Source: Cupriavidus sp. U2 (GTDB taxonomy: Bacteria > Pseudomonadota > Gammaproteobacteria > Burkholderiales > Burkholderiaceae). From it: DNA of 64,000 nucleotides. This document shows, one piece after another, positions 4,030-21,658 of the stretch (within the stretch, counting starts at the first letter, position 1; every line of letters starts with the position of its first letter). The position numbers and the translations under genes are program-made. The notes beneath the pieces were generated by a model. It worked only from the letters and a program-made list of their open reading frames with translations. It was not told where the DNA came from and did not search any database. The stretch is from NCBI RefSeq assembly GCF_009663685.2, contig NZ_RCOG02000027.1:550348-614347 (forward strand), given 5' to 3'.

Positions 4030-5808
4030 TCAACTGCAGCGGAAGCTGGCGGCGTCGTTGATGTCGCCCGTGCCGTTGTATCGTGCCGTCTTCGGATACG
4101 GGCAGAGCGGGCGCGTCCGGTCAACGGTGCCAGTGGTCCAAGCTGCCGGAACATCGCCGTTAGGTGCCGCGTTCGAACTGCCACGCGCCGTGGCAATGAC
4201 ACTCTCCGGTGCCTTGCCTTGCTCTACCCAGGTCACAAGCGGCGTCAGGATGTCAAACTGATCGGCAGTAGGACCGCCGGAGCAGTGGTTCATTCCGGCA
4301 ATTGGGAAATAGCGTGCGAAATCGCCCGCGTCACCGCTGTTGGCTGCCATCAGCCTCTCATACCAGTCAGTGGTGTCATTCGAAGAAAACACCGGGTCGC
4401 TGGTGCCGTGGTACACGATCAGCTTCGCGCCGCGATTCTTCAGCACTGACAAGTTGGTCTCATCGGGTGGCGTCATGAATGACCAGGCCGACTCCGTGTA
4501 CGTACCGTCGCTGGCAAAGATCTTCGGTGCGTCGGTGTCCATGCTGAAGTTCAGCGCAAACGCCTTGAGCGCGCTGGCGGTCGACGCCGGCTGCGGCGGC
4601 GTCGTGAAAACGAACGCCAAGGTGGCTGGGTCGAGCGAAATCGATGCGCTTTGCTTCCACTGGGCCCAGCCTGCGCTGCTGATACCCGCATCAAACGGGA
4701 AGCTGGCGTACAGCGCCTGGCCCGCGCTGTTGCGTGCGCCGGCGAACAGGTTGCTCAGTGCCGTCTTCTGCGAGGCGGTCAGGCAGGTTCCATCACGGGT
4801 CGTACCCGCGCAGGTCGGCACGTCGTTGCTCAGGCTGAACTGGGACTGGCATGCCTTGAGGTTCTGCACCATACCGTCTGTCGCACCGTCCAGCGCATCG
4901 CACTTCGCCAGCACGCGACTGGAGATCAACGCGCGCTCCGCGGCCGACAGCGCAGTGGTGATATCGGGAAGGCCATCCGTGCCCGTCGTGGAAACCGTCG
5001 CCAATTGCTGCGCGCCGTAGACCTCGCCAATTGCGGCCTTCGGCAGATGGAAGCCGGGGTCGCCCGCCACGATGCCGTCGTACTCCTTGGCCATGCGTGC
5101 CGCGGCGACCATCGCATGGCGTCCGCCATTGGAGCATCCACCAAAGTAGCTGCGATCGGGATCCTTGCCGTAGGACTGGGAGATCAACGCCTTGGCCATC
5201 GGTGTCAGTGTTGCGACGGTGTTATAGCCATAATCAAGCCGGGCTTGCGGATCGATCCCAAACAGGGGATTCTGGCTACCGGTGTGCCCGGCATCGGAGC
5301 TGATGACGGCAAAGCCCATCGCAAGTGCGCCGGTCTGGGGCCCGCCGCCCAGTACACCTTGCGCCTGGTTGACGCTGCCATCCAGACCACCGTTGGCCTG
5401 GTAGTAGAACCTGCCGTTCCAGACCTTGGGCAGACGCATCTCGAAGCCCATGGCGTAGGCTTTACCATCGACAGGACTGGTGCGCGCCTTCATATTGCCC
5501 ACAATCAGGCAATGCTCTGCCACGCTAGTGGCCCCTGTCTTGATCGCGCCAGCGGCAACTGTAGTGACCGCTGTAATGGACGTGTCCTGGAATGCCAGCT
5601 TGCTGGCAAGGCTTTCACATGTGGCGGACAACGTCGTGCCCACTGCCGGACCTAGCACCGGTAATCCCGATGCCGGTGCCGGGGTCGAAGCGGTGGGTGG
5701 CGCCGATGCGGTGCGGGTGCCGGCGTCGTCGCTGCCACCGCATCCCGCCAAAGGGACGAGCGCGATCGCGGTGGCCAGCAAGGCGCCACCGGTAAGTTGT
5801 TGAGGCAT
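4030..5808 (-). CDS. Tannase/feruloyl esterase family lipoprotein, 592 aa
   Basis: The N terminus is a lipoprotein signal with lipobox LAGC followed by GGSDD, so the enzyme is probably anchored in the outer membrane or exported. An alpha/beta-hydrolase core carries the family nucleophile motif GGCSNGGRH (Ser near residue 223). The acid is likely in YHGTSDPVF and the base in AGMNHCSGG. The Cys beside the Ser and the Cys beside the His match the disulfide-tied triad known in tannases and feruloyl esterases. Size fits the family. GGGAG stands five bases before the ATG. A MarR gene is divergent across 343 bp. The likely role is hydrolysis of aromatic esters such as gallate or ferulate esters; the natural substrate is unknown. 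Confidence 0.88.
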   Translation of the reverse strand: MPQQLTGGALLATAIALVPLAGCGGSDDAGTRTASAPPTASTPAPASGLPVLGPAVGTTLSATCESLASKLAFQDTSITAVTTVAAGAIKTGATSVAEHCLIVGNMKARTSPVDGKAYAMGFEMRLPKVWNGRFYYQANGGLDGSVNQAQGVLGGGPQTGALAMGFAVISSDAGHTGSQNPLFGIDPQARLDYGYNTVATLTPMAKALISQSYGKDPDRSYFGGCSNGGRHAMVAAARMAKEYDGIVAGDPGFHLPKAAIGEVYGAQQLATVSTTGTDGLPDITTALSAAERALISSRVLAKCDALDGATDGMVQNLKACQSQFSLSNDVPTCAGTTRDGTCLTASQKTALSNLFAGARNSAGQALYASFPFDAGISSAGWAQWKQSASISLDPATLAFVFTTPPQPASTASALKAFALNFSMDTDAPKIFASDGTYTESAWSFMTPPDETNLSVLKNRGAKLIVYHGTSDPVFSSNDTTDWYERLMAANSGDAGDFARYFPIAGMNHCSGGPTADQFDILTPLVTWVEQGKAPESVIATARGSSNAAPNGDVPAAWTTGTVDRTRPLCPYPKTARYNGTGDINDAASFRCS

Positions 5809-7041: not shown

Positions 7042-8126
7042 GGTGGTCTCCTAAATAGTTTGGTGACAGTCTGAATACGGCAATCCGCGGCGGGTACGCG
7101 GCCCATCGTGCGGAAAAGCTGGATCTGTTCTGTGATTCGCCGGCGGGTGTCAACGATGGCGACGCGCGACGGAGGAATTAACCGGGTCAAACGCGCGTCA
7201 CCATTCTCTTCAGCGTAGGGGATTGTGTCGCCCCTACCCTGGGATGGAAATATCTTAACTGGAAATTAGTTTCAACATGGCGTTATACCGGGCTCACTTT
7301 CCGAAAAGTGCACCGCTTAGCCGCATATTGTCATTCATCGCATATTCACCAACGTGATGCGCAATCAAAGTTGATGATTATTGAAAATCGATATCGTTTT
7401 CGACATTAATGGGGGCGAGGGAAAAGGCTGGAATATGAAATTGCAATAGATTCCGATATCAATATTGAAACATATTTGGGCCGATGTTTCCGTCTCAGCC
7501 AGATGGTGGAGAGCCTCATCCAAAATAATGGCTGACTGAAAAAATAACTGTCTGGTCAGATACACAAGTGAGATTGCAGTATCAATCTGTTGAATACAGG
7601 CGGCAACTAATTTTCTGGCGCCTAACGTAGATTGTGCAACGGGTGCTAGTGGCCCGACATTTTGGGGTGAAGGGGCCAGCGTCTTCGGTACATTTCCGCA
7701 TTTAAAGGGCCCCGAACCGACATATCGATTTGATTGTCACGGTCCGGTCACATTTAGATGCCTTACCGCGCACATTAACGAGGCAAAGTGCACACTGGCC
7801 GCGTGGCTTTTGTCACTTTTCGAGAATCGCGCGCCGACCCCATTCGCCGGTGTTTCAAGGTTGCAACCATTCGAGGGGGCGGCTTACGCCGTGTGGCGGG
7901 GTTGTTTGCTGGAATCCCAAATAATCTCTGCGATGATCGGTGGCTGGCATAACCATCGCTCTGTCTTTAATTCCAAATCGCTACCGCCGCCAAAAGACGA
8001 ACCGTGCGAGAAGAAAAGCGACATGCAGCGTGGAAAGCGGTCGTAGACGGTCCTAAAAGCAAGTCGTCGTAGGGGCGTCCCGCCTCCCCAATGGGAACGC
8101 CCGCTTTGCACTCAGGAGAGACCGGC
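7042..8126. other. Long gene-poor region upstream of the exopolysaccharide-like locus
   Basis: This ~1.1-kb stretch has no frame with coding character. The open frames at 7365-7565 (-), 7730-7924 (+) and 7810-8046 (+) lack family features and convincing ribosome-binding sites. About 7240-7640 is clearly AT-richer than the rest of the window. It contains short repeats, such as two copies of GCATATT about 16 bp apart near 7325-7345, and a palindrome TCTG-GT-CAGA at 7551-7560. It is probably a large promoter/regulatory region for the downstream genes, or a remnant of acquired DNA. Confidence 0.5.
8073..8102 (+). promoter_or_regulatory. GC-rich hairpin in the leader of wecB
   Basis: GGGCGTCCC (8073-8081) can pair with GGGAACGCCC (8093-8102) with one bulged A. 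It ends 11 bases before the AGGAGAG ribosome-binding site of the epimerase gene. It could be an attenuator-like or mRNA-stabilising leader structure. No T tract follows, so it is not a normal intrinsic terminator. Confidence 0.35.
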
Positions 8127-9434
8127 ATGGCTCAGAAAGTGCTCGCCGTTTTCGGTACGAGGCCGGAAGCCATCAAGATGGCGCCATTAATTCATCGGCT
8201 GCGGGAGGCGGCGAACATCGACTTGCGCGTGTGCGTCACAGGCCAACATCGCCAGATGCTCGACCAGGTATTGCGACTTTTCGAGATCGTTCCGGACTTC
8301 GACCTGAACATCATTAGCCAGGGCCAGACGCTGTCCGACATCACGACGCGTGTGCTGACAGGCGTGCATGCGGTATTGGATCGCTTTGTACCTGACGCGA
8401 TGCTCGTGCATGGTGACACCACCACCACGCTTGCCGCCACCCTGGCGGCGTTCTACCGCAATGTCGCGGTGGGACACGTTGAAGCGGGCCTGCGCACCGG
8501 CAATCTCAGCGCGCCGTGGCCAGAAGAAATGAACCGGCGCGTGACCGATGTGATGGCCTGTTGGCTGTTCGCACCCACGCTGCAGGCGCAGGAAACGCTG
8601 CTGCGCGAAGGCGTCGATCGCGATCGGATCAGCCTCACCGGCAACACGGGCATTGACGCCCTGTTGCAAATCAAGAAACGCCTCGATAGCGATGACGGTA
8701 TGCGCAACCGGCTGGCCGCGCAATATAGCTTCCTGGATAAATCGCGGCGGCTGATTCTGGTCACCGGCCATCGGCGCGAGAACTTCGGTACGCCGTTCGA
8801 GCGCCTGTTCGTCGCACTGCGCACGCTCGCAGATCGCAATCCCGATATCCAGATCGTTTATCCGGTGCATCTCAACCCGCGCGTGCAGGCGCCTGTCAAG
8901 GCAATCCTTAGCGGGCACCCGAACATCCACCTGATCGAGCCCCAGGAATACCTGCCGTTTGTCTTCCTGATGTCTTCCGCGCATCTGATCATCACTGACT
9001 CGGGCGGCATTCAGGAAGAGGCACCCGCGCTGGGCAAGCCGGTGCTCGTGACGCGTGATTCCACGGAGCGCCCTGAAGCCGTAGCCGCCGGCACAGCGCG
9101 GCTGGTGGGCACGGATCCGGAGCGCCTGATCACCGTTACGGAGCAATTGCTTAACGATACCGAGGAATATGCGCGCATGGCACGCGCCCATAACCCATTC
9201 GGTGATGGCCGCGCCAGCGAGCGCATCGTCGTTGCGTTACAGGCGCCGCTCCAGGGCCCCGACCGGAACTGTGGCAACACCCCGGCCCACGCAGTTCTTG
9301 GCGGCTTGAATGGCCGCGGGCCAGCCATGTACGCGGCGACATCCATGACATCGATCACATCGGCGACATCGACCACATTGGCGAATGAGTCGTCCAGGGG
9401 CCAACGGCCCGCGCCAGAAGGAGCCATTCCATGA
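8127..9434 (+). CDS. wecB: UDP-N-acetylglucosamine 2-epimerase (non-hydrolysing), 435 aa
   Basis: It interconverts UDP-GlcNAc and UDP-ManNAc in the cytoplasm. The sequence opens with [13 protein letters not shown] and carries HVEAGLRTG (about residues 116-124), TGHRRENFG (about 213-221) and [17 protein letters not shown] (from about 290), all hallmarks of the family. AGGAGAG six bases before ATG 8127 decides the start. The usual length is about 375 residues. Here a ~60-residue tail rich in Ser, Thr and Ala follows the conserved core and looks disordered. The stop overlaps the next ATG as ATGA. No UDP-ManNAc dehydrogenase is adjacent, so UDP-ManNAc itself may be the end product supplied to the locus. 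Confidence 0.93.
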
Positions 9435-9775
9435 AGCGCTCACGCATGACCCGGTTTGTTGCGTGGGGGACAGCAGTCCTATTTGCCAGTTCCCTGGTCT
9501 CGATGCCCGCCCACGCCGCACTGACTGAAGAGGCTGCTGCGGTGGCGGCACAGCCACCGCTATATCTGCCGGCAAGTCCGGCGGACCCCGGCGGATTGAA
9601 GGGGTATGACCATAGCGTTCAGATCGACTTTGCCTATGAAGCCGATGCCGTTGGCACGAACAAGGACAAGAAGGACAAGATCAAGGCGAAAAAGCCCAAA
9701 AAGCTCAAGGCCGGGCCAAAGGTGAAGGCAGGCACCTACACACTCGCGCCGGCTCCCGAAGCGGAGCCGGATTAA
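9431..9775 (+). CDS. Small secreted Lys-rich protein of unknown function, 114 aa
   Basis: A signal peptide of about 29 residues ends at MPAHA-AL. A short mature region follows, then a basic block built from [18 protein letters not shown], ending in an acidic-Pro tail. AGGAG lies before the ATG, which overlaps the stop of wecB, so translation is coupled. No family was recognised. The basic block could bind an anionic polymer or the cell envelope, but this is only a guess from composition. Confidence 0.7.
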
Positions 9776-9880
9776 GGTGCGATCCGGCACCGACCACTCT
9801 GGAGCATGCCTGGCGGCGGGCTGGCGCTTTTCGCGTCTCCGCCAAGGCGAGGCACATTGACATCGCGCTGGGAGAAGATC

Positions 9881-11716
9881 GTGCTTAACAACTCTCACTC
9901 ATTCATGCTGAGATGCGGCCGCCTGGTGCTGCAGGCAGTCATGGCGCTGCTTGCCCTCGGCGTGATCGTGCCGGCAATCACGCATGCGGCCACCAATCAA
10001 ATTGCGCTGCTGGTGCCAGATGGCTTTGCGCTACCGGACGCGCGCGTCTCCTCGTGGCTCGACGCCGCCCAGGAAGAAGGTCTGAAGATCACGGTCATCA
10101 ATGACAGCCAGTTCCAGCAAGGCACGACGCCGGCGCAGTTCTCCGGCGTCATCCTGCCGGACCAGGTACACGCGAACGCGAGCGATGCGCTGATCTCGTC
10201 GCTCGAGACGTACGCAAATCAGGGTGGACAGTTGATGCTCGTCTACGACTTCGGCGCGCTGACGACCACAGGATTCTATGCACCGCAGAAAAGCCGTCTG
10301 AGCAACCTGGCGGGCGTCGACTACGTGCTCTATGACCAGTTGCTCGGCAATATGATCGGCGTGGGACCGGTCACGGGCCTGGGTACTACCCTCAGGACCC
10401 TGCAAGTGGCACCCGGCAAGTCGATGGTATGGGACGCCACCGCCACCAATCCCGTGGAAGGTATCTCTGGCTACGTCTATGGCTTCCTGATTTACCCGAG
10501 CTTCGTGACCCAAGGCACCTACAGTGGGTCCGCTCTGCTGACGTCGCCCAATTTCGGGCTCGTCGCGGGGCTGCGCAATTTCGGAAACGGGCGCGTGTTG
10601 TTCGTCAACATGCCGCTGTCTTACTTGAAGGGCCAAACCGACGGCATGCTGATGCACGGAATGCTGCGCTACTTCGGCACCAACATGATGAAGATGCCGC
10701 GACTGTCCGCGCAACCCAAGGCGCTTGGCGGATTGGTACTGAACTGGCACTTCTGTGCCGGTGACCAGATTGCGCCGGCAAACAAGCTCAAGGGCTGGGG
10801 CATCTTCCAGAAGGGAACCTTCTCGATGTCCATCACGGCCGGGCCAGACCAGATCAATGTGGGAGACGGCAAGGGCATCAACCTGTCGCAGAACACCACC
10901 GCTCAACAACTGGTGGCATACCTGCTGAGCCAGGGCCACAACATCGGTAGCCACGGCGGATGGATTCACGATTTTTGGGGCGCGAACGCCAGCGAGACGA
11001 ATCAATCGACCTTTGAGCAGTACCTTGTGCTGAACAAGCAAAGCGTGGAGGGCGTAACGGGTCGCCCGGCAATCGAGTATGCGGCGCCGGAGGGCAACAC
11101 GCCACAATGGTCGGTCAACTGGCTCGAAGCCAACGGCAACAGCGCCTATTACTTCCTGGGGCACACCGGTATGGCGCCGACCCGGAGCTACCGCAACGGC
11201 GCCCTGACCAACGAAACGATCCGCGCGTTCCCTGTCATGCCGTTCGGGCAGTACGCGACCTTCGAGGAGTTCGAGGAGTTCAACGTTCCGGCGGCCAGCA
11301 TTACGGCCTGGTACAAGCAGCTTATCGATTTTGTGGCGAAGAACCGCACCAGCCGGTTGATCTACATGCATCCGCTGGGAGCGGTCGACTACCAGTCGGT
11401 GCTCAACAGCCTTTTCAACAAGGCGGCGACCGTCAAGACGAGCGGGCAGTTCAACTGGTTCACGATGGATACGCTGGCGAAGTTCGGCCAACGGCGCCAG
11501 CAAGTCAGCTGGCAGGCGACTGACGGCGGGAATTCCTGGACCTTTCAGGCTACCCACCCCAGCGACCTGACCGACATGGCATGGGTGCTGCCAAAGTCGG
11601 CTTACAACCAGCCGGTTGTGACACAGGGACTCGGGCTCGTGACCTGGGATGGCACCAACTGGATCGTGACGGCACTAGGAGGCACCACGCTGGCCTTTGT
11701 CAGCAGCAAGCGGTAA
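9881..11716 (+). CDS. Secreted polysaccharide-deacetylase-like protein with N-terminal amidotransferase-like domain, 611 aa
   Basis: GTG at 9881 with GGAGA five bases upstream gives a good signal peptide ending near PAITHA-ATNQ; the longer in-frame ATG at 9806 adds a non-signal extension. Residues ~35-280 look like a flavodoxin/amidotransferase-type fold (opening IALLVPDGFALPD), which is often fused to envelope sugar enzymes. The second half resembles a NodB-type deacetylase: GSHGGWIH places two histidines five residues apart (about H358 and H363), where the family normally has H-x3-H, and later AAPEG and YMHPLG match barrel strands. The first Asp of the classical TFDD motif is not obvious. 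It may deacetylate or simply bind the polymer in the periplasm. Activity is uncertain. Confidence 0.62.
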   Translation: MLNNSHSFMLRCGRLVLQAVMALLALGVIVPAITHAATNQIALLVPDGFALPDARVSSWLDAAQEEGLKITVINDSQFQQGTTPAQFSGVILPDQVHANASDALISSLETYANQGGQLMLVYDFGALTTTGFYAPQKSRLSNLAGVDYVLYDQLLGNMIGVGPVTGLGTTLRTLQVAPGKSMVWDATATNPVEGISGYVYGFLIYPSFVTQGTYSGSALLTSPNFGLVAGLRNFGNGRVLFVNMPLSYLKGQTDGMLMHGMLRYFGTNMMKMPRLSAQPKALGGLVLNWHFCAGDQIAPANKLKGWGIFQKGTFSMSITAGPDQINVGDGKGINLSQNTTAQQLVAYLLSQGHNIGSHGGWIHDFWGANASETNQSTFEQYLVLNKQSVEGVTGRPAIEYAAPEGNTPQWSVNWLEANGNSAYYFLGHTGMAPTRSYRNGALTNETIRAFPVMPFGQYATFEEFEEFNVPAASITAWYKQLIDFVAKNRTSRLIYMHPLGAVDYQSVLNSLFNKAATVKTSGQFNWFTMDTLAKFGQRRQQVSWQATDGGNSWTFQATHPSDLTDMAWVLPKSAYNQPVVTQGLGLVTWDGTNWIVTALGGTTLAFVSSKR

Positions 11717-11800
11717 AGGACAAGCGCCCGTCCTCGCGCGCTCGCAATGGAAGCGGGGACGCGGCGCTGCAGAAGAACAGCACTACATGGGCCTTCGAGC

Positions 11801-13399
11801 ATGCACCCTGGATATCGCCTCTTTTTGTCGATTGGCGTGATGCTGGTCATCACTGTTCCCATCCCCGGGGCGTTCGCAGCCGCCCCCAACAGCTACATCA
11901 CAACGTTATCCATCCCCCCTGGGACTGCCGAGGGCGGCGTCCACGGCGTCAGCGATTCACCTGCGCAACCTGCCGCTCGGGCCGCGTCAGCAGACGCCGC
12001 GCTGAATCTCGCAGTGGTGCTGCCGGACACGCTCGACAACGATGACATGAACGGCTTGACCAAACGCACGTGGGCAAGCCCGCTGCCGGCAAGCCCCGCG
12101 CGCGAGGCCCCCGCAACAGCTGAAAGGCCGCGCGCGCAGGCGATTGTGCCGCCGCTGACGGTGCTGCTGATGGCGGTCATTGGCCTGGTGCTGTTCTATG
12201 CCGTAAGACACTACCTCTTCACCCTGAACCGGCTCTTCGGCTTTCAGCGACACCCGTACCTCGACATCGATATTGCGCAGTGGCCTACGTTGACCGTCAT
12301 GGTCGCCGCGCACAATGAAGAGGCCGTGATAGCCGGTTCGCTGGCCTGCCTGCTGCATGCGGACTATCCCGCTGACAGGCTCGTCATCATGCCGGTCAAC
12401 GATCGGTCCACCGATGGCACGCGCGAGATCATCGATGATCTGGCGGCGAAGCACCCCGGGCGCATCACACCGTTTCACCGCGCCGCCGGAAAGCCGGGCA
12501 AGGCTGCCGCGCTCAAGGATGCCAGCGAGGCGGTGACGAGCGATATCGTCGTGGTCTTCGATGCCGACTATCTACCGCCGGTCGGGCTGCTAAAGCAGCT
12601 GGTGGCCCCTTTCTTCGATCCAGAGGTGGGTGCCACCATGGGCCGCGTGGTGCCGTTGAATGTGGGCGTGAACCTGCTGACGCGCCTGCTCGATCTGGAA
12701 CGCTCGGGTGGCTATCAGGTTGACCAGCAAGCCCGCATGAACCTGCAGTTGGTCCCCCAGTACGGCGGCACCGTGGGCGGCGTGAGGATGCGGGCATTGC
12801 GCGCTGTCGGTGGCTGGCATGACGATGTACTGGCGGAAGACACCGACATCACCTATCGCCTGCTGCTGGCCAACTGGAAGACGGTCTACCAGAACTGGTC
12901 GGAGTGTTATGAGGAGGTGCCGGAGACCTGGCCGGTCCGCGTGCGGCAAATCCGGCGCTGGACCAAGGGCCACAATCAAGCGCTGTACCGCCACGGCGTC
13001 AGGATGGCGGCTTGCCGGCATCACGGCCTGTTCGAGAGAATCGATGGCGTCGCGCTGCTCGGCATCTATATGATGGCGCCGATCATGCTGTTTGGCTGGT
13101 TGCTGGCGATCCTGTTGTTCTATGCTGGCGGCTTGCCACTATTCGGCGAAGCGTTGATCCTGTTCGCGCTGATGTCCTATGGCACCTTGGGCAATTTTGC
13201 AGCGTTTTTCGAGATCGCCGCCGCGGTGCACCTGGACGGCACGCGCGAACGCATCCGGCTGTTGCCTCTGAACTACTTCGGCTTCCTCGTCAGCATGCTC
13301 GCCGTGTCGCAAGCGATTCTGGGTCAAATCGTCTTCGATCAGCTGTTACGTCGGGAACTGCGGTGGGACAAGACGTCCCGTTATCGCCCGAGGAACTGA
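11801..13399 (+). CDS. Processive family-2 glycosyltransferase (exopolysaccharide synthase), 532 aa
   Basis: The GT2 core is complete: VMVAAHNEE (about residue 166), the DAD metal motif (about 253), EDTD catalytic base (about 345) and QIRRW (about 382), the Q-x-x-R-W signature of processive synthases such as cellulose, hyaluronan and PNAG synthases. One membrane helix precedes the core and about three follow it. Unusually, ATG 11801 begins with a signal-peptide-like segment, then a ~90-residue Ala/Pro-rich linker that would be periplasmic. The alternative ATG at 11747 only adds a basic extension; neither has a good ribosome-binding site. It should polymerise a nucleotide sugar and pass the chain through the inner membrane. 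Confidence 0.88.
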   Translation: MHPGYRLFLSIGVMLVITVPIPGAFAAAPNSYITTLSIPPGTAEGGVHGVSDSPAQPAARAASADAALNLAVVLPDTLDNDDMNGLTKRTWASPLPASPAREAPATAERPRAQAIVPPLTVLLMAVIGLVLFYAVRHYLFTLNRLFGFQRHPYLDIDIAQWPTLTVMVAAHNEEAVIAGSLACLLHADYPADRLVIMPVNDRSTDGTREIIDDLAAKHPGRITPFHRAAGKPGKAAALKDASEAVTSDIVVVFDADYLPPVGLLKQLVAPFFDPEVGATMGRVVPLNVGVNLLTRLLDLERSGGYQVDQQARMNLQLVPQYGGTVGGVRMRALRAVGGWHDDVLAEDTDITYRLLLANWKTVYQNWSECYEEVPETWPVRVRQIRRWTKGHNQALYRHGVRMAACRHHGLFERIDGVALLGIYMMAPIMLFGWLLAILLFYAGGLPLFGEALILFALMSYGTLGNFAAFFEIAAAVHLDGTRERIRLLPLNYFGFLVSMLAVSQAILGQIVFDQLLRRELRWDKTSRYRPRN

Positions 13400-13401
13400 A
13401 T

Positions 13402-14499
13402 ATGTGGCCATTGCTGCTCGGTACGCTCACCATGTTCGTGTTCGCCCTGCCGCTCGTCCCGGCGGCGCTGGAATGGCGGCGGGCGCGCGACGTCCGGCCG
13501 CTAATGATTGACGGCGAACACACCCTCGATGTGACGAAAGTGGCGGCGGATTTTCGCGCACTGGTGGCGCGGCATGAAGCGGGTGACCGGCTGCACAGGC
13601 TCACGCGCACGGCCATGGCGCTACGGCCGGTCGTTCATGTCACCGGTAGTTTCGTTCCGACACGGGCGGAGACGAATCTGGGCGTCTGCACGCGCACTGT
13701 CGTGACTGGCGGAACGCTGACGCTGCCTGACGGTTTCACGTTCTCGCGCGATATCTATGGGCGACGCGGCGTATATACGGGCCGGGAGAACCATCTTCAG
13801 GTTCTGCTTTCCGAGGGCGAGCTCGTGATACGCGATGGCAGCGAACTCCAGCGCTGGGCCCACGCGCGCAACATCCACGTCGAGCCGAACTGCCGGCTGC
13901 GCGGACCTGTGTCGGCGCACTATGCCATCCGCCTCGAAGAAGCATGTGAGTTCACGTCAGTGAGCGCGGCGGTGGTCAGCTTCGGGCAGCGGCGTGCCGG
14001 GACGCCGCCCGATATCGACGATCGGACTGACAATGCCAATGCTGGGGCGGCGCCCTCCCTCGAGGCCATTCCTGATGCCGATGCCTCGGAGCATCCGGAT
14101 GGTCGCTGGCTGGTACCCCATGCCCTGACGCTTTCTGCAAACACTGTGCATCGTGGTGACCTGATCGTACACGGCGAGCTTTGGATCGGCGCCGGCTCCT
14201 GCATCATGGGCAGCGTCAAGTCGACCGGTGGCATCTGGCTTGGACCAGGCGTGCGCATCCATGGCGCGCTAATCGCCGCCGGCGCGATCTTGTTGGAGCG
14301 CGAGTGTGTCATCGCCGGGCCGTTGGTCTCAGAGCAGGAAATCGATGTGGGCAGGCGCTGTGTGATTGGCGCCGCCGGCCGGCGCACGACGGTCGTCGCG
14401 CCGTTATTGCACATGCACGCGGGCACGGTGGTCTATGGCGCGGCATCTGCGTTGGAGGAAGGCCGCGTCGTGCCAGAAGCCTCGGCTGGCGACGCGTGA
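13402..14499 (+). CDS. Membrane-anchored polymer-forming (bactofilin-like) protein, 365 aa
   Basis: ATG 13402 lies two bases after the synthase stop and has AGGA eight bases upstream; the longer open frame runs back into the synthase gene and is rejected. One N-terminal helix (MWPLLLGTLTMFVFALPLVP) anchors the protein. The C-terminal ~110 residues show the short hydrophobic/glycine repeats of a right-handed beta-helix (DLIVHGELWIGAG, GIWLGPGVRIHGALIAAGAI), as in bactofilins (DUF583). A middle region, about residues 40-190, is not recognised. It may scaffold the synthase complex or organise it at a cell site. The tight spacing indicates the same operon. Confidence 0.72.
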   Translation: MWPLLLGTLTMFVFALPLVPAALEWRRARDVRPLMIDGEHTLDVTKVAADFRALVARHEAGDRLHRLTRTAMALRPVVHVTGSFVPTRAETNLGVCTRTVVTGGTLTLPDGFTFSRDIYGRRGVYTGRENHLQVLLSEGELVIRDGSELQRWAHARNIHVEPNCRLRGPVSAHYAIRLEEACEFTSVSAAVVSFGQRRAGTPPDIDDRTDNANAGAAPSLEAIPDADASEHPDGRWLVPHALTLSANTVHRGDLIVHGELWIGAGSCIMGSVKSTGGIWLGPGVRIHGALIAAGAILLERECVIAGPLVSEQEIDVGRRCVIGAAGRRTTVVAPLLHMHAGTVVYGAASALEEGRVVPEASAGDA

Positions 14500-14514
14500 A
14501 CCGACTGCAAAATC

Positions 14515-15519
14515 ATGAAGACATTGATGGCTTTCATGTTGTTGATCGCCACGCTTGCGCATGCGCCAGCGGATGCGGGCGAACTCTCGCTCCAGGGGTA
14601 CCAGCGTCCCGACGGCGCTATTACTACCTACTTTGGCGGCGACTCGATCGATCCCTATTTCGCGGCCAAGGCGCTGCTCGCCGCACAGGACGCGGGGGGG
14701 ACGATGTCGGCCGCCGCCAAACGCTGGATCGCCTGGCAGTTGCCGCGCCAGCACGCTGACGGCCGCTTCGACCGCTACTGCCTGAAGGCCGAGCGCTTTG
14801 TCGCATGCCAGCCAGCCGATGCGGACGATGCCCTGATGGCAGTCTGGATGGAACTACTGGTCCGTCAAGCGCCATCCGACGGCATGCCGCCAGCGTGGCA
14901 GGCCAGCTTCGACAAGGCTAGCGCACATATCGACACCCTGCGGGATGCGCAGTCCGGGGTGTACTACATTTCGTCCAGCCTGCATGTCGCCTTGCTGATG
15001 GACAACGCGGAGATCTCCAGCGCCTTCAAGGCGGCCAGCGCCTATCGGCGGCGCCTGGGTGACACTGCGGGCGCCACGGAGTGGATGCGCAAGGCCGAGC
15101 AACTCGACAAGGACATCCTGCGTGTGTTCTGGCGGCCTGGGCAGGGTTATCTGGTGAGCACCCAGCCACGCGAACAGTATGAGTTTTATCCGGACGCTGT
15201 CGCACAGATCTTTCCTATTCTTTCTGATATTCGTCCGCCTAATCGACCGGATGCCTTGACGTACCGCCTCTGGATGAAAGAGCACCGGATGACCTGGCTG
15301 CAGATGTCCGAAGCGGATTTCCCCTGGGGGCTGGTGGCACTGGTCGCCGACAAGATGGAGGACAAGGAAGCGATTTCGTGCTGGCGCATCCGTTCCATCC
15401 AGTTCCGTCATGGAAAACACTGGAATGTGCTGGAAGAGGCGTTGTACCTGGCGTTCGTGGCGCGCTTGACCCCCGAACAGGCGCTGGCACCGCCTCCAGC
15501 CGGGTTGCGCTGTCGTTGA
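14515..15519 (+). CDS. Secreted alpha-helical protein, possible glycan lyase or hydrolase, 334 aa
   Basis: A clean signal peptide (cleavage near PADA-GEL) is followed by an all-helical sequence with repeated helix-turn-helix units, a pattern like the alpha/alpha-toroid folds of GH8, GH88 and alginate-lyase families. Acidic clusters such as ADADDALMAVW and YEFYPDAVAQ, and aromatic patches such as QMSEADFPWGL, could line a sugar groove. No single family signature was recognised. Many synthase-dependent systems encode a periplasmic polymer-degrading enzyme (BcsZ, AlgL, the hydrolase domain of PelA), and the position here fits that role. The assignment is inference from fold impression and context. 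Confidence 0.5.
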   Translation: MKTLMAFMLLIATLAHAPADAGELSLQGYQRPDGAITTYFGGDSIDPYFAAKALLAAQDAGGTMSAAAKRWIAWQLPRQHADGRFDRYCLKAERFVACQPADADDALMAVWMELLVRQAPSDGMPPAWQASFDKASAHIDTLRDAQSGVYYISSSLHVALLMDNAEISSAFKAASAYRRRLGDTAGATEWMRKAEQLDKDILRVFWRPGQGYLVSTQPREQYEFYPDAVAQIFPILSDIRPPNRPDALTYRLWMKEHRMTWLQMSEADFPWGLVALVADKMEDKEAISCWRIRSIQFRHGKHWNVLEEALYLAFVARLTPEQALAPPPAGLRCR

Positions 15520-15540
15520 GGCAAGATCGAAAGGATACGC

Positions 15541-16389
15541 ATGGCAAAGCTCTCGCATACCCGAATCCGGTTCTACGGCACGCTTGTCCTGTCATGCCTG
15601 CTCGGCATGGCGATGCTGGTCGCCACCACGGAATCGCGCGCCCAGGCGGAAGCCAGCCCGCCCCGAACGTTCGTGCCGTTACTCACGGGGTTCATAGAAG
15701 GCGGACTAGGCCATGCCAACCTGACCAACAACAATTCGAGCTGGAACGACCAGTACGTGCGCGGCGGCGTCCACCTGACCCCGAAGGACTATGTGACCGG
15801 CGAAATCAGTCACCAGAACCATTTCGGCGACGCTGGCACGTTCTTCGGACTGGGCTATACGCGAATTTTCGATGACAACTGGTACGGCTTCTTGAGTGCC
15901 GGCACGAGTTCGGGCGGCTTTTTCCTGCCCGAGGTCCGTGTCGATGGCATCCTGTTCCGCAAGCTGCTGGAAAAGAAGAACCTGGTGGCCAGTGCAGGCT
16001 TTACCTACTACCGCGCCAAGGAGGTCTATAACGACAAGACCTTGCTTCTGGGGCTGACCTACTACTTCGACGCCCCGTGGATCATCCAGCTCGGGGGGCG
16101 GCTGAACCGAAGCGATCCCGGCAACGTCCGCTCCAACCGGGGATCGATCGCTGTCACCTATGGCCGCGACAAAGACCAGTACATCACTTTGCGATACGAC
16201 GGCGGGACCGAGGCCTACCAGATCACCGGCGCGCAGCAACTGCTCAGTGATTTCACGAGCCATGAAGTTTCCCTGAACTGGCGCAAATGGATCACCAAAC
16301 GCTACGGCATCAACTTGCGGGCGGTCTATTACGAGAATCCGTCCTACAAACGCAAACAAGCAGAGATAGGTGTTTTCGCGGAGTTCTAG
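15541..16389 (+). CDS. YaiO-type outer-membrane beta-barrel protein, 282 aa
   Basis: The signal peptide ends near ESRAQA. The rest is alternating beta-strand sequence with Gly and aromatic residues (GFIEGGLGHANL, GGVHLTPKDYVTGEI, LGLTYYFDAPWIIQLGGRL) and a terminal Phe (VFAEF), the standard signal for outer-membrane assembly. The strand pattern resembles the YaiO family of barrels found near envelope polysaccharide genes. AAAGGA stands seven bases before the ATG. It is the likely outer-membrane exit for the polymer, but it lacks the TPR region found in PgaA- and BcsC-type porins, so export might depend on another partner. Confidence 0.72.
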   Translation: MAKLSHTRIRFYGTLVLSCLLGMAMLVATTESRAQAEASPPRTFVPLLTGFIEGGLGHANLTNNNSSWNDQYVRGGVHLTPKDYVTGEISHQNHFGDAGTFFGLGYTRIFDDNWYGFLSAGTSSGGFFLPEVRVDGILFRKLLEKKNLVASAGFTYYRAKEVYNDKTLLLGLTYYFDAPWIIQLGGRLNRSDPGNVRSNRGSIAVTYGRDKDQYITLRYDGGTEAYQITGAQQLLSDFTSHEVSLNWRKWITKRYGINLRAVYYENPSYKRKQAEIGVFAEF

Positions 16390-16392
16390 ACC

Positions 16393-17199
16393 ATGGCCCA
16401 TCCTGCTGGACACACTCCCGCTACCCGCGATGCAAGCGACGCACTTGGCCTGACGATCCTGAGCCTGGCCAGGCATCGGTCACTGGACCGGCTAAGTCTG
16501 TCGGCTTCGACGATGATCGGCATTTTCCTGTTGCCGGTGCTGTTCAATTCTGCCGAGTGGCTGCTGCGCGGCAAGATCAGCATGACATGGACCGCAGTGC
16601 TCGCGTTCTGGATCGACAAGCTTGGCATGGACGGCGTCGTGATCGAACGCTTGACACGGGTGGCCTGGTTCGACTTCGACTTGCCCTATCTGAATGTCAC
16701 GGCGACACCGCCCGACGTGCCCATGTGGTCCGCAAACTTGCTGGCCACGCTCATCGTGTGCATATTCGCGCTTCGCATGCATGACCGGTTCCTGCCGCTG
16801 CGCTACTTCCTTCTGTTTGCCGTCTTCATTCAATGCACGGCGCTGCTGTTCTTCGCCGTGGCACCGACGGATTTCCCCTACACGGTCAGCGAGTATGCAA
16901 ACAACATGCTGAAGACCTCTGCCAGCTTCCTGTTCCTGCTGCCATGGGGGCATGCGCTCGTCTATTACATCTTCGACTTTTCCTGGCCGAAGAAGATACT
17001 CCTGACGCTGCTTACGCTGGTGTTTGTCATCGTGGCTGTGCCGATGCAGCTGGCACTGCATGTCTATGTGATGAAAACCGGGTCGCTGCTAATGATGCCG
17101 CTACTGTCGTTCGTGTTCGGGCCGACGATGATCGTCCTTGGATGCATGGCGTTGTATGGATGGGCAATGAGTTGGGATCGGCAAACGCCCCGGGCATAG
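16393..17199 (+). CDS. Polytopic inner-membrane protein of unknown function, 268 aa
   Basis: The gene begins three bases after the barrel gene and is the last of the operon. It has about six hydrophobic helices, for example MIGIFLLPVLFNSAEWLL, LLATLIVCIFAL, YFLLFAVFIQCTALLFFAV, SASFLFLLPWGHALVYYIF and LLTLLTLVFVIVAVPMQLA. No family was recognised. By position it could be an accessory of the synthase (as PgaD or BcsB are for theirs), or a membrane enzyme modifying the polymer. Neither role can be shown from the sequence. Confidence 0.7.
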   Translation: MAHPAGHTPATRDASDALGLTILSLARHRSLDRLSLSASTMIGIFLLPVLFNSAEWLLRGKISMTWTAVLAFWIDKLGMDGVVIERLTRVAWFDFDLPYLNVTATPPDVPMWSANLLATLIVCIFALRMHDRFLPLRYFLLFAVFIQCTALLFFAVAPTDFPYTVSEYANNMLKTSASFLFLLPWGHALVYYIFDFSWPKKILLTLLTLVFVIVAVPMQLALHVYVMKTGSLLMMPLLSFVFGPTMIVLGCMALYGWAMSWDRQTPRA

Positions 17200-17219: not shown

Positions 17220-18575
17220 TCACGAAGCGAGCCAGCCGTTGAGCGAACGCAGGGTATCCTCGCTCAATTCTCCCGTCGCGGCGGCAAGGCGGAGGCGACC
17301 CAGCAGGTAGTCCAGCCGAGCCTGCACCACGTCCAACTCCGCGGCGAACACGCGCTGCTGCGCGTCGAGCACGTCGGGTTCGGTGCGGGTGCCGACGTCC
17401 CGGCCAAGGATCGTCGCCGCCAGCGCACTACGCGCCGACGTCAACGACTGCTCGAGGGCGGCGATACGTGACACGCCAGTCTTCACGGACAGGAACCCGT
17501 CCTGCACGTTCAGGCGCACATCGCGCCGGGCCGCGGCAAGCTCCTGTTCCGCCTGGCTCCTCTTTGCAACGGACTCCCGCTCGCGCGAGTCCAGGCTCCC
17601 ACCCGCGTACAGCGGAATGTTTACCTGCAACCCCACGGTCGCGGAACGCGTATTGGCAGCAACCCAAGGCGCCAGATTACCGGTCTGCCCTTGCGTGTTG
17701 TAGCCCGCCACGAGCGAGACGGTCGGGCGGCTGGCAAGCCGGTACTTGTCGATCTCCGCGCCGGCAATGTCAAGTTCCGACTGCCGGGTCTTGACCAGGA
17801 AGCTCTGTTCTTCGCCCTTGGCCTGCCACGCCGCTAGATTGTCCGGCTCCGGCGGCCTGGGCGCAAACCGGGCGGCAAGCCCGCTCAGTTGATCGGGCGA
17901 CGTGCCAACGATCTCCTGGAAGCGCGTGCGACGCTGCTCCAGTGCGGATTGCGCCGTCACTTCGCGGCTCTCCACACCGTCCAGGCGCGCCTGGGCTTCT
18001 TGTAGATCGGTGATCTTGTCCTGCCCGATGTCGAAGCGCGCCTTGGCGCGATCGCGCTGCTGCCGCAGGGCCGCCTTCTCGGCCTGTACCACGCGCAGCG
18101 TCTCCTCGCCCAGGACGACGCCGAAGTACGCTTCTGCTACCCGCAGGGCAAGATCCTGGCGCGACTGGCTGAACTGTGTTTGCGCCAGGTTCGTCTGTTC
18201 CCGCAATTGCTTCTTCGTCGCCACCGCACCCCGGTCGTAGATCGGCTGCACCAACACCACGCCGGCCTGCCGCACAGTGCCCGACGTATTGGAAGGGATC
18301 AGGGACGCACCATCGTCGGTGGCCGAAGAATGGACGACAGTACGGCCCACGCCGCCTTGCAGCCTCAGGCTGGGCAGCAGCAGCGCGCGGCCCTGCACGG
18401 CCTTCTCTTGCCCCGCCGTGAGCGCATCGTTCGCGGCAAGGGTAGACGGATCATGCGCCAATGCCTGCTCGTAGGCGCCCACGAGGTCGATCGCGCCCGA
18501 CTCCCCGGCGCTCAGGAACAGCATGCAGCCCAGCGCCACCTGCCCGGCCCGCAGGGCCATATTCAATCGCTTCAT
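17220..18575 (-). CDS. TolC-family outer-membrane efflux channel, 451 aa
   Basis: ATG 18575 opens a signal peptide (MKRLNMALRAGQVALGCMLF, cleavage near GESGA) with GAGAG upstream; the longer frame runs into the pump gene. The mature protein has the duplicated long-helix pattern of TolC-type channels, with repeats AYEQALAHDPS/ALTAGQE in the first half and RESVAKRSQAEQELAAARRDVRLNVQDGF in the second, and a Gly-rich strand VGLQVNIPLYAGGS. It lies 29 bases after the pump gene and completes a tripartite efflux system. Confidence 0.92.
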   Translation of the reverse strand: MKRLNMALRAGQVALGCMLFLSAGESGAIDLVGAYEQALAHDPSTLAANDALTAGQEKAVQGRALLLPSLRLQGGVGRTVVHSSATDDGASLIPSNTSGTVRQAGVVLVQPIYDRGAVATKKQLREQTNLAQTQFSQSRQDLALRVAEAYFGVVLGEETLRVVQAEKAALRQQRDRAKARFDIGQDKITDLQEAQARLDGVESREVTAQSALEQRRTRFQEIVGTSPDQLSGLAARFAPRPPEPDNLAAWQAKGEEQSFLVKTRQSELDIAGAEIDKYRLASRPTVSLVAGYNTQGQTGNLAPWVAANTRSATVGLQVNIPLYAGGSLDSRERESVAKRSQAEQELAAARRDVRLNVQDGFLSVKTGVSRIAALEQSLTSARSALAATILGRDVGTRTEPDVLDAQQRVFAAELDVVQARLDYLLGRLRLAAATGELSEDTLRSLNGWLAS

Positions 18576-18604
18576 CACAATCACTCTCAACGTCAGATTC
18601 GCGA

Positions 18605-21600
18605 TCAGACGGTCGCGGGGCGCTTTGCCCGGTACCACGTCGCGTACAGGGCAGGCAGGAACACGAGCGTCAGCACCGTGGCCACGGCGAGGCCGCCCAT
18701 GATTGCCCACGCCATGGGGCCCCAGAACACCGAATGGGTGAGCGGCACCATCGCCAGGATGGCCGCCAGTGCCGTCAGCACGATCGGACGCAACCGCCGC
18801 ACCGCCGACTCGACAATGGCCGTCCACAACGGCACGCCTGCACGCACGTCCTCGTCGATCTGCACGACGAGGATCACCGAGTTGCGGATGATCATGCCGG
18901 CCAGCGCGATGACACCGAGCATCGCAACGAAGCCGAACGGAATCCGGAAGGTGGCCAGCACCACGCTCACACCGATCAGGCCGAGCGGCGCGGTCATCAG
19001 GACAATTGCCATCTTCTTCATGTCCTGCAGTTGGATCATCAGCAGCACCAGCACGGCGATGATGGTCAACGGCATCACCGCAAACACCGAACGCTGGGCT
19101 TTCGCGCTCGATTCCGATGCACCGCCGATGTCGATGCCATAGCCGAGCGGGAGGTCCTTTTCGAGCGCTTCGATCCGGGGCAGCAGCGCGCCGGTGACGT
19201 CGGGTGCCTGCGCGCCCGCGATATCAGCACGGACAGTCATCGTCGGCACGCGATTGCGTCGCCACAGTTCCCCATCTTCACTGGCAAGGGTGAGACGGGC
19301 CACCTGCGATACCGGCACGAACTTCCCGTCGCGTACATAGATCCTGGCGTCCTTCAGGTTGTTCAGGTCCGTACGCTCCGCCGCAACGAGGCGCGACACA
19401 ATGTCGATACCCTGGTCTTCTTCCCGGAACTGTGTGATCGGCGTCCCGGAGATAGACGCCTCGAGCGCCTGCTTGATCTGGGCGGACGTAATGCCAAGTG
19501 CACGCGCCTTGTCCTGATCGACGTCGACCTGGACGCGCTTGATGCGCTCGCTCCAGTCCTGGTTCACCTGACGCACATGCGGCTCCTCGCGCATGATCGC
19601 TGCCACCTTGTCGCCGATAGCCCGGACCTTGTCGTTGTCCTGGCCATAGACCCGGAATTGCACCGGATAACCAACGGGCGGACCATTCTCCAGGCGGTTG
19701 ACCCGCCCACGTACGTTGGGGAACTTTTCCGCGAACAACTTCTCGAGCTTTTCCTTCGCGCGCTCACGCGCCTCGCCGCCCTTGGTCATCACCATCATTT
19801 CGCCAAGGTTCAGGTTCGGGGTCTGGGCATCGAGCGGCAGGTAGAAGCGCGGCGCGCCATTGCCCACGAAGCTCGTCACCGCGGCAATGTCCGGATCGCC
19901 CTTGAGCATCGCTTCGAGCTTCTGCACCTCGCGCTGGCTCGCTTCGAACGTCGAAGCCTCCGGCATCCACATGTCCACGATCAGCTCGGCACGGTCCGAC
20001 GCCGGAAAGAACTGCTGCGGCACTGCCTTGAAGAGCATGAGCGCGCCGACGAACGCCGCAAGCGTGATGCCGAGCACCCAGACGCGTTGCCGCAAGCAGA
20101 AATCCATGAAGCGGCGGAATTTGACATAGAAGCCGCGCTGGTAGACCGCCTCCTCGTCATGCGAAGCATGCGCATGCTCCTTCAACAGCTTGAAACCGAT
20201 GTAAGGCGTAAACAGCACGGCCACCAGCCAGGACAACAGCAGCGAGATTCCGACCACCTGAAACAGCGAATACACATACTCGCCGGTGCCGGACTTTGCA
20301 AAGCCGACCGGAAGGAAGCCCGCCGCCGTGATCAGCGTGCCGGTGAGCATCGGGAACGCAGTCGCCGTGTAGGCGTAGGTGGCCGCGCGAAACTTGTCCC
20401 AGCCCTGCTCAAGCTTCAGCGCCATCATTTCGACGGCAATGATGGCGTCGTCCACCAGCAGGCCGAGCGCGATGATCAGTGCACCGAGCGAGATGCGCTG
20501 CAGGTCGATCCCCATCACATACATCGCCAGGAACGTCATGGCCAGCACGAGCGGTATGCTCAGCGCTACCACCAGCCCGGTCCGCAGACCCAGCGAGAGG
20601 AAACTCACGACGAGCACGATGACCACTGCCTCTGCGAGGCTCTTCTTGAATTCGAAAACGGAATGCTCGACGATGCGTGGCTGATCGCTGACTGCATGAA
20701 TCTGCACGCCGACAGGCAGGGTGGCCTCGATGCGCTTGACCGTTTCATCGAGCTTCGCCCCAAGTCGGATCACGTCACCGCCCTTGCGCATGCTCACAGC
20801 AAGGCCGATAGCCTCGTTGCCGTTGAAGCGCATCCGCGAAGTGGCCGGCTCGACAAAACCACGACGGACATCGGCGATATCACCCAGCCGGAAGGTACGC
20901 TGCCCGGCACGGATACCGATGGCGCGAATGCCCTCTACGGAATCGAACTCGCCGCTCACGTCCAGCCGCACCCGTTCGGCACCGGTTTCCACCGTACCGC
21001 CCGACGACACGACATTGGTCTGCGCGAGCGTCTGGGCGATCAGGGCCGGATCGATCCCCAGAGACGCAAGCTTGGCGGTGGAGATTTCCACATAGATCTT
21101 CTGCTCCTGCTTGCCCACGAGATCGACCTTGTTGACGTCGTCAACACGAAGGAACTCGTTGCGCGCCGCATCGGCGATCCGCCTCAGGTCGTCATAGCTG
21201 AATCCGTCGCCAGTGATGGCATACAGGTTGCCGAACGTGTCTCCGAACTCGTCATTGAAGAACGGCCCTTGCGTGCCCTGCGGCAGGGTATGGCGGATGT
21301 CACCAAGCTTCTTGCGAACCTGATACCACACATCCGGCACGGCGGATCGGGGAACGTCTTCGCGCAGGTTGACCTTGATCTGCGCCTCACCCGGCTTGAC
21401 GTAGGTGGACGTATAGTCGATCTCCGCGACCTCCTGCAACTTGCGCTCGAGCTTGTCGGCCACCTGGTCGGCCATCTGCTGCGCGGAGCTTCCCGGCCAG
21501 TAGGCCTGCACCACCATGGTCTTGATCGTAAATTCTGGGTCTTCCTTCTGGCCAAGGCTGCCGTATGCCAGCACGCCGGCCACGGACAACAGCAACAGCA

Positions 21601-21658
21601 GGAACGCGATCATCTGCGGGTGTTTAAGCGCCCATTCGGACAGATTGACACCTTTCAC
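18605..21658 (-). CDS. RND efflux pump, inner-membrane permease, 1017 aa
   Basis: The true start is GTG 21658 with GGGAGG six bases upstream. It overlaps the adaptor stop as GTGA, and the longer frame upstream is antisense-like filler. The protein has the RND layout: an N-terminal helix (MIAFLLLLLSVAGVLAYG), a large periplasmic loop, a central helix bundle (LVVALSIPLVLAMTFLAMYV, then GLLVDDAIIAVEMM with the paired proton-relay aspartates), a second loop, and a C-terminal bundle. About 1020 residues suits the proton-driven HAE-type drug pumps; the motifs of metal-exporting CzcA-type pumps were not noticed. The substrate is unknown. Confidence 0.93.
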   Translation of the reverse strand: MKGVNLSEWALKHPQMIAFLLLLLSVAGVLAYGSLGQKEDPEFTIKTMVVQAYWPGSSAQQMADQVADKLERKLQEVAEIDYTSTYVKPGEAQIKVNLREDVPRSAVPDVWYQVRKKLGDIRHTLPQGTQGPFFNDEFGDTFGNLYAITGDGFSYDDLRRIADAARNEFLRVDDVNKVDLVGKQEQKIYVEISTAKLASLGIDPALIAQTLAQTNVVSSGGTVETGAERVRLDVSGEFDSVEGIRAIGIRAGQRTFRLGDIADVRRGFVEPATSRMRFNGNEAIGLAVSMRKGGDVIRLGAKLDETVKRIEATLPVGVQIHAVSDQPRIVEHSVFEFKKSLAEAVVIVLVVSFLSLGLRTGLVVALSIPLVLAMTFLAMYVMGIDLQRISLGALIIALGLLVDDAIIAVEMMALKLEQGWDKFRAATYAYTATAFPMLTGTLITAAGFLPVGFAKSGTGEYVYSLFQVVGISLLLSWLVAVLFTPYIGFKLLKEHAHASHDEEAVYQRGFYVKFRRFMDFCLRQRVWVLGITLAAFVGALMLFKAVPQQFFPASDRAELIVDMWMPEASTFEASQREVQKLEAMLKGDPDIAAVTSFVGNGAPRFYLPLDAQTPNLNLGEMMVMTKGGEARERAKEKLEKLFAEKFPNVRGRVNRLENGPPVGYPVQFRVYGQDNDKVRAIGDKVAAIMREEPHVRQVNQDWSERIKRVQVDVDQDKARALGITSAQIKQALEASISGTPITQFREEDQGIDIVSRLVAAERTDLNNLKDARIYVRDGKFVPVSQVARLTLASEDGELWRRNRVPTMTVRADIAGAQAPDVTGALLPRIEALEKDLPLGYGIDIGGASESSAKAQRSVFAVMPLTIIAVLVLLMIQLQDMKKMAIVLMTAPLGLIGVSVVLATFRIPFGFVAMLGVIALAGMIIRNSVILVVQIDEDVRAGVPLWTAIVESAVRRLRPIVLTALAAILAMVPLTHSVFWGPMAWAIMGGLAVATVLTLVFLPALYATWYRAKRPATV

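Follow-up and report, generated by a model that had tools for sequence, protein, structure and literature searches.

The stretch of DNA analysed here (the window) comprises 64,000 nucleotides of the genome of Cupriavidus sp. U2 (contig NZ_RCOG02000027.1) and carries, at window positions 8127-17199 on the + strand, a cluster of eight genes, A to H, that is predicted to encode a surface-polysaccharide system of the synthase-dependent type (Table 1). In a reading of the open reading frames (ORFs), all eight were open and lay on one strand, and with the chosen start codons the intergenic gaps from A to H were -4, 105, 30, 2, 15, 21, and 3 nt, in agreement with the eight tightly packed genes of an original prediction made from the letters of the DNA. 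The start of A at 8127 was preferred over the first ATG of the ORF (8091) because AGGAGA precedes the ATG at 8127. For C, whose ORF runs from 9806, the GTG at 9881, which is preceded by GGGAGAAG, was preferred. Export-like N termini were recognised by eye in B, C, F, and G.

Table 1. Genes of the cluster, with coordinates in the window
Gene	Product	Coordinates	Strand	Basis
A	Non-hydrolysing UDP-GlcNAc 2-epimerase, WecB type	8127..9434	+	TIGR00236, PF02350
B	Small exported Lys-rich protein	9431..9775	+	Composition; profile matches confined to Cupriavidus loci
C	Deacetylase-like protein of the NodB type, exported	9881..11716	+	PF01522 in relatives
D	Membrane GT2 synthase with FDADY, AEDTD, and QIRRW	11747..13399	+	PF13641, E 1.4e-28
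E	One N-terminal transmembrane helix, then bactofilin-like beta-helix domain	13402..14499	+	PF04519 in relatives
F	Exported protein; fold uncertain, perhaps an alpha/alpha six-hairpin hydrolase or lyase acting on glycans	14515..15519	+	Weak family matches
G	YaiO-family outer-membrane beta-barrel	15541..16389	+	TIGR04390
H	Polytopic inner-membrane protein of no described family, marker of the system	16393..17199	+	Hydropathy

A scored 494 bits against TIGR00236, the WecB equivalog model (cut-off, 210 bits), and matched PF02350 with an E value of 2.9e-119; the proposed UDP-N-acetylglucosamine (UDP-GlcNAc) 2-epimerase is thus WecB. D matched the GT2 domains of Pfam, contained the letters FDADY, LAEDTD, and QIRRW, and carried C-terminal transmembrane (TM) stretches. 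In an alignment of 22 rows, in which D was 58-82% identical to its 21 relatives, the DAD, EDT, and Q..RW positions were invariant. D therefore combines a GT2 domain having the DxD, (T/E)ED, and QxxRW motifs with TM helices, as is characteristic of the synthase class, and the GT2 synthase of the original prediction was confirmed. The D profile gave 573-786 bits with 19 cluster members and at most 126 bits with eight other GT2 proteins (PgaC, 126 bits; YaiP, 53 bits; NfrB, 12.9 bits), and TIGR03937 (PgaC/IcaA), the best synthase model for D, scored 113 bits (cut-off, 422 bits). When the profile was searched against PDB, a membrane GT2 protein and cellulose synthase subunits were matched, the best match being the membrane GT2 protein 6yv7, which we take to be a lipid-linked mannosyltransferase. 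A GT2 tree was set aside in favour of the profile scores: 18 of its 24 inner branches were open, its branches were long, and the D group did not form one clade because NfrB and a GT2 protein of the same genome, each of them thinly aligned, were placed among the open forks of the group. G reached 204 bits against TIGR04390 (YaiO; cut-off, 32 bits), as expected for the YaiO-type outer-membrane barrel that had been proposed, and it may be the exit channel for the polymer. H showed ~5 TM stretches by hydropathy, which fits the polytopic membrane protein predicted earlier, and had no match in Pfam, NCBIfam, or PDB sequences.

Of the 21 E members, 20 matched PF04519 (bactofilin) at E ≤ 1 (best, 8.4e-8) and only six matched Hexapep (best, 0.11). 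According to hydropathy, E has a single TM stretch at the N terminus (residues 4-22); since it is followed by EWRRARD, the positive-inside rule suggests that the beta-helix domain is probably cytoplasmic. These results fit the claim of an anchored bactofilin-like protein beside the synthase, and E occurs at every locus with complete flanks (see below). Bactofilins polymerise into filaments without nucleotides. E of the window probably has the bactofilin-like domain in common with them. It differs from bactofilins in starting with a TM helix of its own, in the ~200 residues, matching no named domain, that precede the bactofilin-like part, and in having a polysaccharide synthase as its neighbour.

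All 20 members of the C family matched PF01522 at E ≤ 1, the best E value being 9.4e-8; six of the 20 also matched GH42M, as an N-terminal GH42M-like domain. Seven loci (L019, L021, L034, L038, L048, L063, and L071, from Sphaerotilus, Leptothrix, and others) encode two C-type proteins; in six of them the second one has HGGW[DN]H and may be a duplicated deacetylase, perhaps of different specificity. B had no Pfam or NCBIfam match and contained 17 K/R against 12 D/E; short weak tblastn matches to it were also seen in L065 and L066. In F, a DADADD motif is conserved (D[AS]DD[AS] in 62 of 69 F ORFs), and the family matches, all weak, were scattered among 22 members: GH78 six-hairpin in two, and MGH1-like, trehalase, and the unrelated DUF2333 in one each. 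These matches in one or two of the 22 members hint at the glycan enzyme that had been suggested for F. Profile searches of PDB with C, F, and H returned no convincing match.

Relatives of D were collected by scanning one genome per species. Of the 184 encoded relatives, the best 80 were kept, and their loci served as the source of the family profiles, so that D is present in them by construction. Fifty-nine D loci were flanked by 7.5 kb or more on either side (full-flank loci); in these, E, G, and H were each found 59 times, A 58, F 49, C 29, and B 5 times; among the best 80 of the 184 loci, contig ends included, the numbers were 78 for E, 75 for A and for H, 73 for G, 61 for F, 39 for C, and 6 for B. 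The conserved core consists of the six genes A-D-E-F-G-H. The gene orders included A-B-C-D-E-F-G-H, D-E-F-C-A-G-H, A-D-E-F-G-H, and A-D-E-C-G-H, and a few loci had genes on the opposite strand; since order and strand vary between lineages, the linkage has been kept through rearrangement. The record titles of the best 80 loci named Beta-, Gamma-, and Alphaproteobacteria, Acidobacteriota, and Candidatus Eisenbacteria, with many metagenome bins, and among the relatives of D that carry a name, the closest were from Cupriavidus. Thus, the expectation that the gene set is co-conserved in other Burkholderiaceae holds for the six-gene core; the gene order varies, and the range is wider than this family. 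The secreted deacetylase-like protein is NodB-like, in line with the predicted deacetylase, and the small basic secreted protein is present with a Lys-rich composition, but judging from the full-flank loci neither C nor B is an invariable part of the system.

Searches that started from other genes of the core gave the same picture. Among 200 genomes from the order (the genome of the window included), four had H, all four with E within ~5 kb on the same contig together with the other core genes; H was also found in 5 of 349 genomes of the phylum, corresponding to four clusters and a 22-bit match with nothing beside it. E gave 22 matches in the 200 order genomes: the five with at least 246 bits all belonged to clusters, one of which lay at a contig edge and lacked G and H; a match of 112 bits was to a bactofilin-like gene standing alone (L098), and the others had at most 27 bits. 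When 60 genomes of the genus were searched for H at E ≤ 1e-3 and for D at E ≤ 1e-80, the same 17 had both, and the system is therefore accessory in the genus. Of 20 regions fetched on H or E matches, 17 contained the cluster (L097 being cut by a contig end), and the cluster-free regions were L098 (E only), L109 (an H fragment), and L110 (nothing). The H fragment of L109 (G221:C76) contains stops and has no other cluster gene in its region, and is probably the remnant of a lost copy. Several clusters per genome were also observed, namely two in G242 and three in G248 (L099-L103), and a third cluster type (L103, also L104 and L105) has the order A-D-E-F-C-G-H without B.

A search for further conserved neighbours yielded mostly shadow ORFs, the 25 largest other ORF families having no more than three ORFs inside the block; the representative of the largest group was a GGDEF-type protein. 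By a motif pattern without a background control, such a protein lies within 1.5 kb of the core in 11 of the 80 loci (L017, L030, L032, L035, L045, L048, L063, L065, L071, L072, and L082, several being close relatives) and anywhere in the locus in 22 of the 80. A local link to cyclic di-GMP (c-di-GMP) through these neighbours is possible, though none belongs to the window cluster.

The core was also found on mobile DNA. In E. fergusonii RHB18-C04, genes for a bactofilin, WecB, YaiO, an H-like protein, an acyltransferase, an F-like protein, and a GT2 protein lie in a row on a conjugative IncI1/B/O plasmid, and the profiles of the window families scored 78 (E), 495 (A), 73 (G), 74 (H), 238 (F), and 573 bits (D) on them. 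No match to the C profile was obtained among the genes of this plasmid cluster, and its acyltransferase is of the PF01757 family. Since this row lacks C and has the acyltransferase, the six-gene core can travel without C and with another candidate tailoring enzyme instead. The E copy of the plasmid, a protein of 165 aa without a TM stretch, reached 31.0 bits against the PF04519 gathering score of 27.9. By megablast, two of 5426 E. coli genomes (AH19B041 and NCTC8623) had DNA similar to 14% of the E. fergusonii stretch, and their annotation shows the same gene row, with TraI-domain and integrase genes in its vicinity. D of NCTC8623, the only protein scored from these two genomes, gave 603 bits on the D profile and is thus a member of the family. 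According to annotation, all three Escherichia copies bring their own wecB, and their E proteins are recorded as polymer-forming cytoskeletal proteins. In both Escherichia settings, genes annotated as phosphoadenosine phosphosulfate reductase and ParB/IbrB-like protein adjoin the cluster (L112:13280-15117; L114:8693-10542; L115:8694-10543), and fimbrial genes and FaeA/PapI-type regulators lie nearby, as if the cluster were part of a shared mobile surface-structure island.

The proposal that the polymer contains N-acetylmannosamine (ManNAc) depends on A, which was the only WecB found in the 6.45-Mb genome. Among the 60 genus genomes, a WecB over the cut-off was present in 17 of 17 cluster-bearing genomes, as against 16 of 43 cluster-free ones. 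No WecB over the cut-off lay away from a cluster in 14 of the cluster-bearing genomes; of these 14, G227, G236, and G241 had the WecB gene reported in pieces, and G241 also had weaker pieces on another contig. A precedent for the ManNAc idea exists in E. coli, for which passages of PMC8669469 and PMC8669472 report that the NfrB phenotypes and infection by phage N4 depend on wecB, that deletion of wecC or wecA does not block N4 infection, and that nfrB and wecB are linked in species lacking a further wecB. The Escherichia copies bring a wecB even though E. coli possesses one of its own for enterobacterial common antigen, as a passage of PMC8669469 states. By analogy with NfrB/WecB, the substrate of D is most likely UDP-ManNAc.

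Known systems were then compared with the cluster. A periplasmic TPR scaffold is usual, if not universal, in synthase-dependent systems. The window cluster departs from this: with the TPR, PilZ, GGDEF, and MshEN models of Pfam and NCBIfam, no match was found at E ≤ 0.1 in the eight proteins, as the original prediction had claimed for a TPR porin and a PilZ/c-di-GMP domain. Bcs and Alg systems follow the logic of a synthase, a periplasmic cleaving enzyme, and a barrel. The window cluster resembles them in this logic and differs in having no PilZ or TPR match and, with regard to Bcs, an F without a match to BcsZ. With PgaABCD, which makes poly-beta-1,6-GlcNAc, it shares by annotation a GT2 synthase and a deacetylase in one cluster; unlike PgaABCD, it has no TPR match and adds WecB, E, F, and H. 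The C profile did not match PgaB (a single-sequence partner, hence a weak negative), and membership in the poly-N-acetylglucosamine (PNAG) group was rejected on the TIGR03937 score of D. Besides Pga, Pel, Bcs, and Alg, which had been named as parallels, two further ones had been missed. The E. coli yaiS-yaiP-yaiX-yaiO cluster likewise has a deacetylase, a GT2 protein, a beta-helix protein, and a YaiO barrel in one cluster, and YaiO and G both exceed the TIGR04390 cut-off. Unlike in the window cluster, however, YaiS is annotated as PIG-L and not NodB, YaiX is annotated as an acetyltransferase and is of the hexapeptide type, and yai lacks WecB, F, and H; orthology was rejected since YaiP scored far below the cluster members on the D profile. 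The NfrB-NfrA-YbcH system of E. coli (the phage N4 glycan receptor, NGR), which acts with WecB, shares with the cluster a GT2 synthase, an outer-membrane barrel, and a tie to WecB that in the cluster is seen as genetic linkage of the synthase gene to wecB, as far as passages of PMC8669469 and PMC8669472 describe it. Unlike the cluster, NfrB carries MshEN and NfrA carries TPRs, whereas the cluster adds the bactofilin, F, and H; E, F, and H are without counterpart in NfrB, NfrA, and YbcH, and the G profile found nothing in NfrA (again a single-sequence partner and a weak negative).

Other pathways and loci were rejected as well. Neither a flippase, a polymerase, an ABC transporter, nor an initiating transferase was matched by Pfam or NCBIfam models in the eight proteins, which speaks against a Wzx/Wzy or ABC-transporter pathway, although H, being without a family, could be a distant flippase or polymerase. 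The Rubrivivax psc1/psc2 clusters, described in passages of PMC3684757, contain genes of the wza and wzy types and represent another polysaccharide locus. PMC8594841 mentions YaiO once, within a list of mutants. Among the papers returned by full-text searches of open-access literature, the coverage of which misses most subscription journals, none described the cluster in its title or abstract opening. With regard to the systems found here, the claim that it matches no known one as a whole stands. The nearest characterised logic is that of NfrBA/WecB and the nearest architecture that of yaiSPXO, and neither is orthologous as a whole; judged by sequence, the cluster is a variant within synthase-dependent exopolysaccharide secretion that is not Pga, Bcs, Nfr, or Yai.

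Based on these results, we consider it reasonably probable that the cluster encodes a TPR-less synthase-dependent surface-polysaccharide system that polymerises UDP-ManNAc, with E as a scaffold of the synthase; the co-inherited core with a GT2 synthase and an outer-membrane barrel supports an exopolysaccharide-type system, as originally predicted. In this system, WecB (A) would convert UDP-GlcNAc to UDP-ManNAc, and D, acting processively, would polymerise the latter, probably into a ManNAc-containing chain, and move the chain across the inner membrane. E, held in the membrane by its own helix with the beta-helix domain in the cytoplasm, would scaffold or cluster the synthase, and H would be a further inner-membrane subunit. 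AlgL and BcsZ occupy the slot of the periplasmic cleaving enzyme that is proposed for F, which may trim or cleave the chain in the periplasm. C, where present, would remove N-acetyl groups, the Escherichia copies having an acyltransferase gene instead, and the polymer would leave via the small YaiO barrel G without a TPR scaffold. A bolder form of this hypothesis is conceivable, though we would lean against it for now: the membrane-anchored bactofilin would polymerise under the inner membrane, align the GT2 synthases, and shape an oriented poly-ManNAc fibre exported through the TPR-free YaiO barrel, and the six-gene module, a surface coat sufficient in itself and supplied with its own sugar nucleotide, would pass from phylum to phylum and travel on conjugative plasmids, which would make the system a new class of cytoskeleton-organised synthase.

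Several observations weigh against this interpretation. The association of WecB with the cluster in the genus (Fisher p 4e-6) ignores shared descent, an extra WecB lies away from the cluster in 3 of the 17 cluster-bearing genomes (G218, G222, and G248), and one of the 59 full-flank loci, L081, has no epimerase gene. This locus, from Eisenbacteria, contains D, E, G, and H at 8804-14158 and no epimerase gene within the fetched stretch. Taken alone, E of the window is a weak bactofilin match below the PF04519 gathering score. G and E. coli YaiO are little alike when compared directly (2 bits; probability of 4% in a profile comparison with a single-sequence partner), and YaiO of the E. fergusonii plasmid is below the Pfam cut-off. 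The role of F as an enzyme is weakly suggested by its family matches, and the F profile did not match BcsZ, although BcsZ as a single-sequence partner makes this a weak negative. C of the window is alone a weak match to PF01522 (E 0.011; 16 bits against a gathering score of 23.1) and has Cys at the conserved Asp of NWHxD, as do six other C ORFs of 47, all from Cupriavidus. The Asp was present in 29 of the 47, the pattern fell on another site in one, and it was not found in 10; among 15 further C ORFs, eight had the Cys form, four the Asp (L092 and L103-L105), and three no pattern match. The metal site of CE4/NodB enzymes consists of the motif-1 Asp and two His. The Asp of NWHxD would be this motif-1 Asp, and the His pair of HGGWIH is retained in C of the window. 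Since the Asp is replaced by Cys, the activity of this copy is uncertain, and it may be altered or inactive.

It was also considered whether the product is a PNAG-like polymer of GlcNAc and glucosamine, in which case D would use UDP-GlcNAc and the epimerase would balance the sugar-nucleotide pool or serve another product. PgaC, a GlcNAc polymerase, was indeed the nearest to D of the eight other GT2 proteins scored, which likewise counts against a ManNAc polymer, and the NodB-type protein at 29 of 59 loci recalls Pga, which by annotation has one too. However, D is far under the PgaC cut-off, and WecB accompanies 58 of 59 loci, is the only one found in the genome, and is carried additionally by the Escherichia copies. 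UDP-GlcNAc is made for peptidoglycan anyway, and a dedicated epimerase would therefore be unneeded for such a polymer; we regard this explanation as unlikely. There is only a slim chance that the cluster is a variant of the NfrBA/WecB (NGR) system: the combination of a GT2 synthase, WecB, and an outer-membrane barrel follows the same logic (passages of PMC8669469 and PMC8669472), but NfrB and NfrA showed next to no likeness to D and G, and the MshEN domain and the TPR barrel are missing.

E may alternatively be a sugar-acylating beta-helix enzyme like YaiX and not a scaffold, the system then being a plain polymer-plus-acylation system. YaiX, an annotated acetyltransferase with Hexapep repeats encoded between yaiP and yaiO, resembles E (probability, 83.8% when profiles were compared; 21.5 bits). 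The predominance of Bactofilin over Hexapep matches among the E members points the other way, as do the cytoskeletal records of the Escherichia E copies, whose loci encode a separate acyltransferase; this alternative, which concerns E alone and is compatible with the rest of the preferred reading, appears rather doubtful, if worth keeping in mind. If D were non-processive, the cluster would decorate a lipid or an envelope glycan and export no polymer. The best PDB match of D, the membrane GT2 protein 6yv7, would suit this case, but QxxRW, the C-terminal TM stretches, the outer-membrane barrel, and the exported proteins fit a polymer better, making a decorating role very unlikely.

As for the surroundings, window positions 7051-8126, 5' of the operon, have a G+C content of 51% as compared to 63% for the window, and no sigma-70-like site was matched on the + strand of this region, which is possibly a regulatory region or a trace of acquisition. 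Directly 3' and convergent with the cluster, positions 17220-22776 (-) carry genes of the TolC family, of the AcrB-type resistance-nodulation-division family, and of the HlyD type, which by domain matches are a separate efflux set. A tannase/feruloyl-esterase family gene (4030-5808, -) and a MASE1 histidine kinase gene (35401-37071, +) elsewhere in the window are apparently unrelated.

To our knowledge, few synthase-dependent exopolysaccharide systems have been characterised. The system described here consists of six co-inherited genes that occur across several phyla and are also carried by a conjugative plasmid, and the H family provides a specific genomic marker for it. Through gene order and co-inheritance, a bactofilin-like protein is tied to a polysaccharide synthase, which makes the cluster a natural case of such a pairing. 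The cluster would allow a ManNAc-based polymer, and also the unexplained role of the YaiO barrel, to be approached by experiment.

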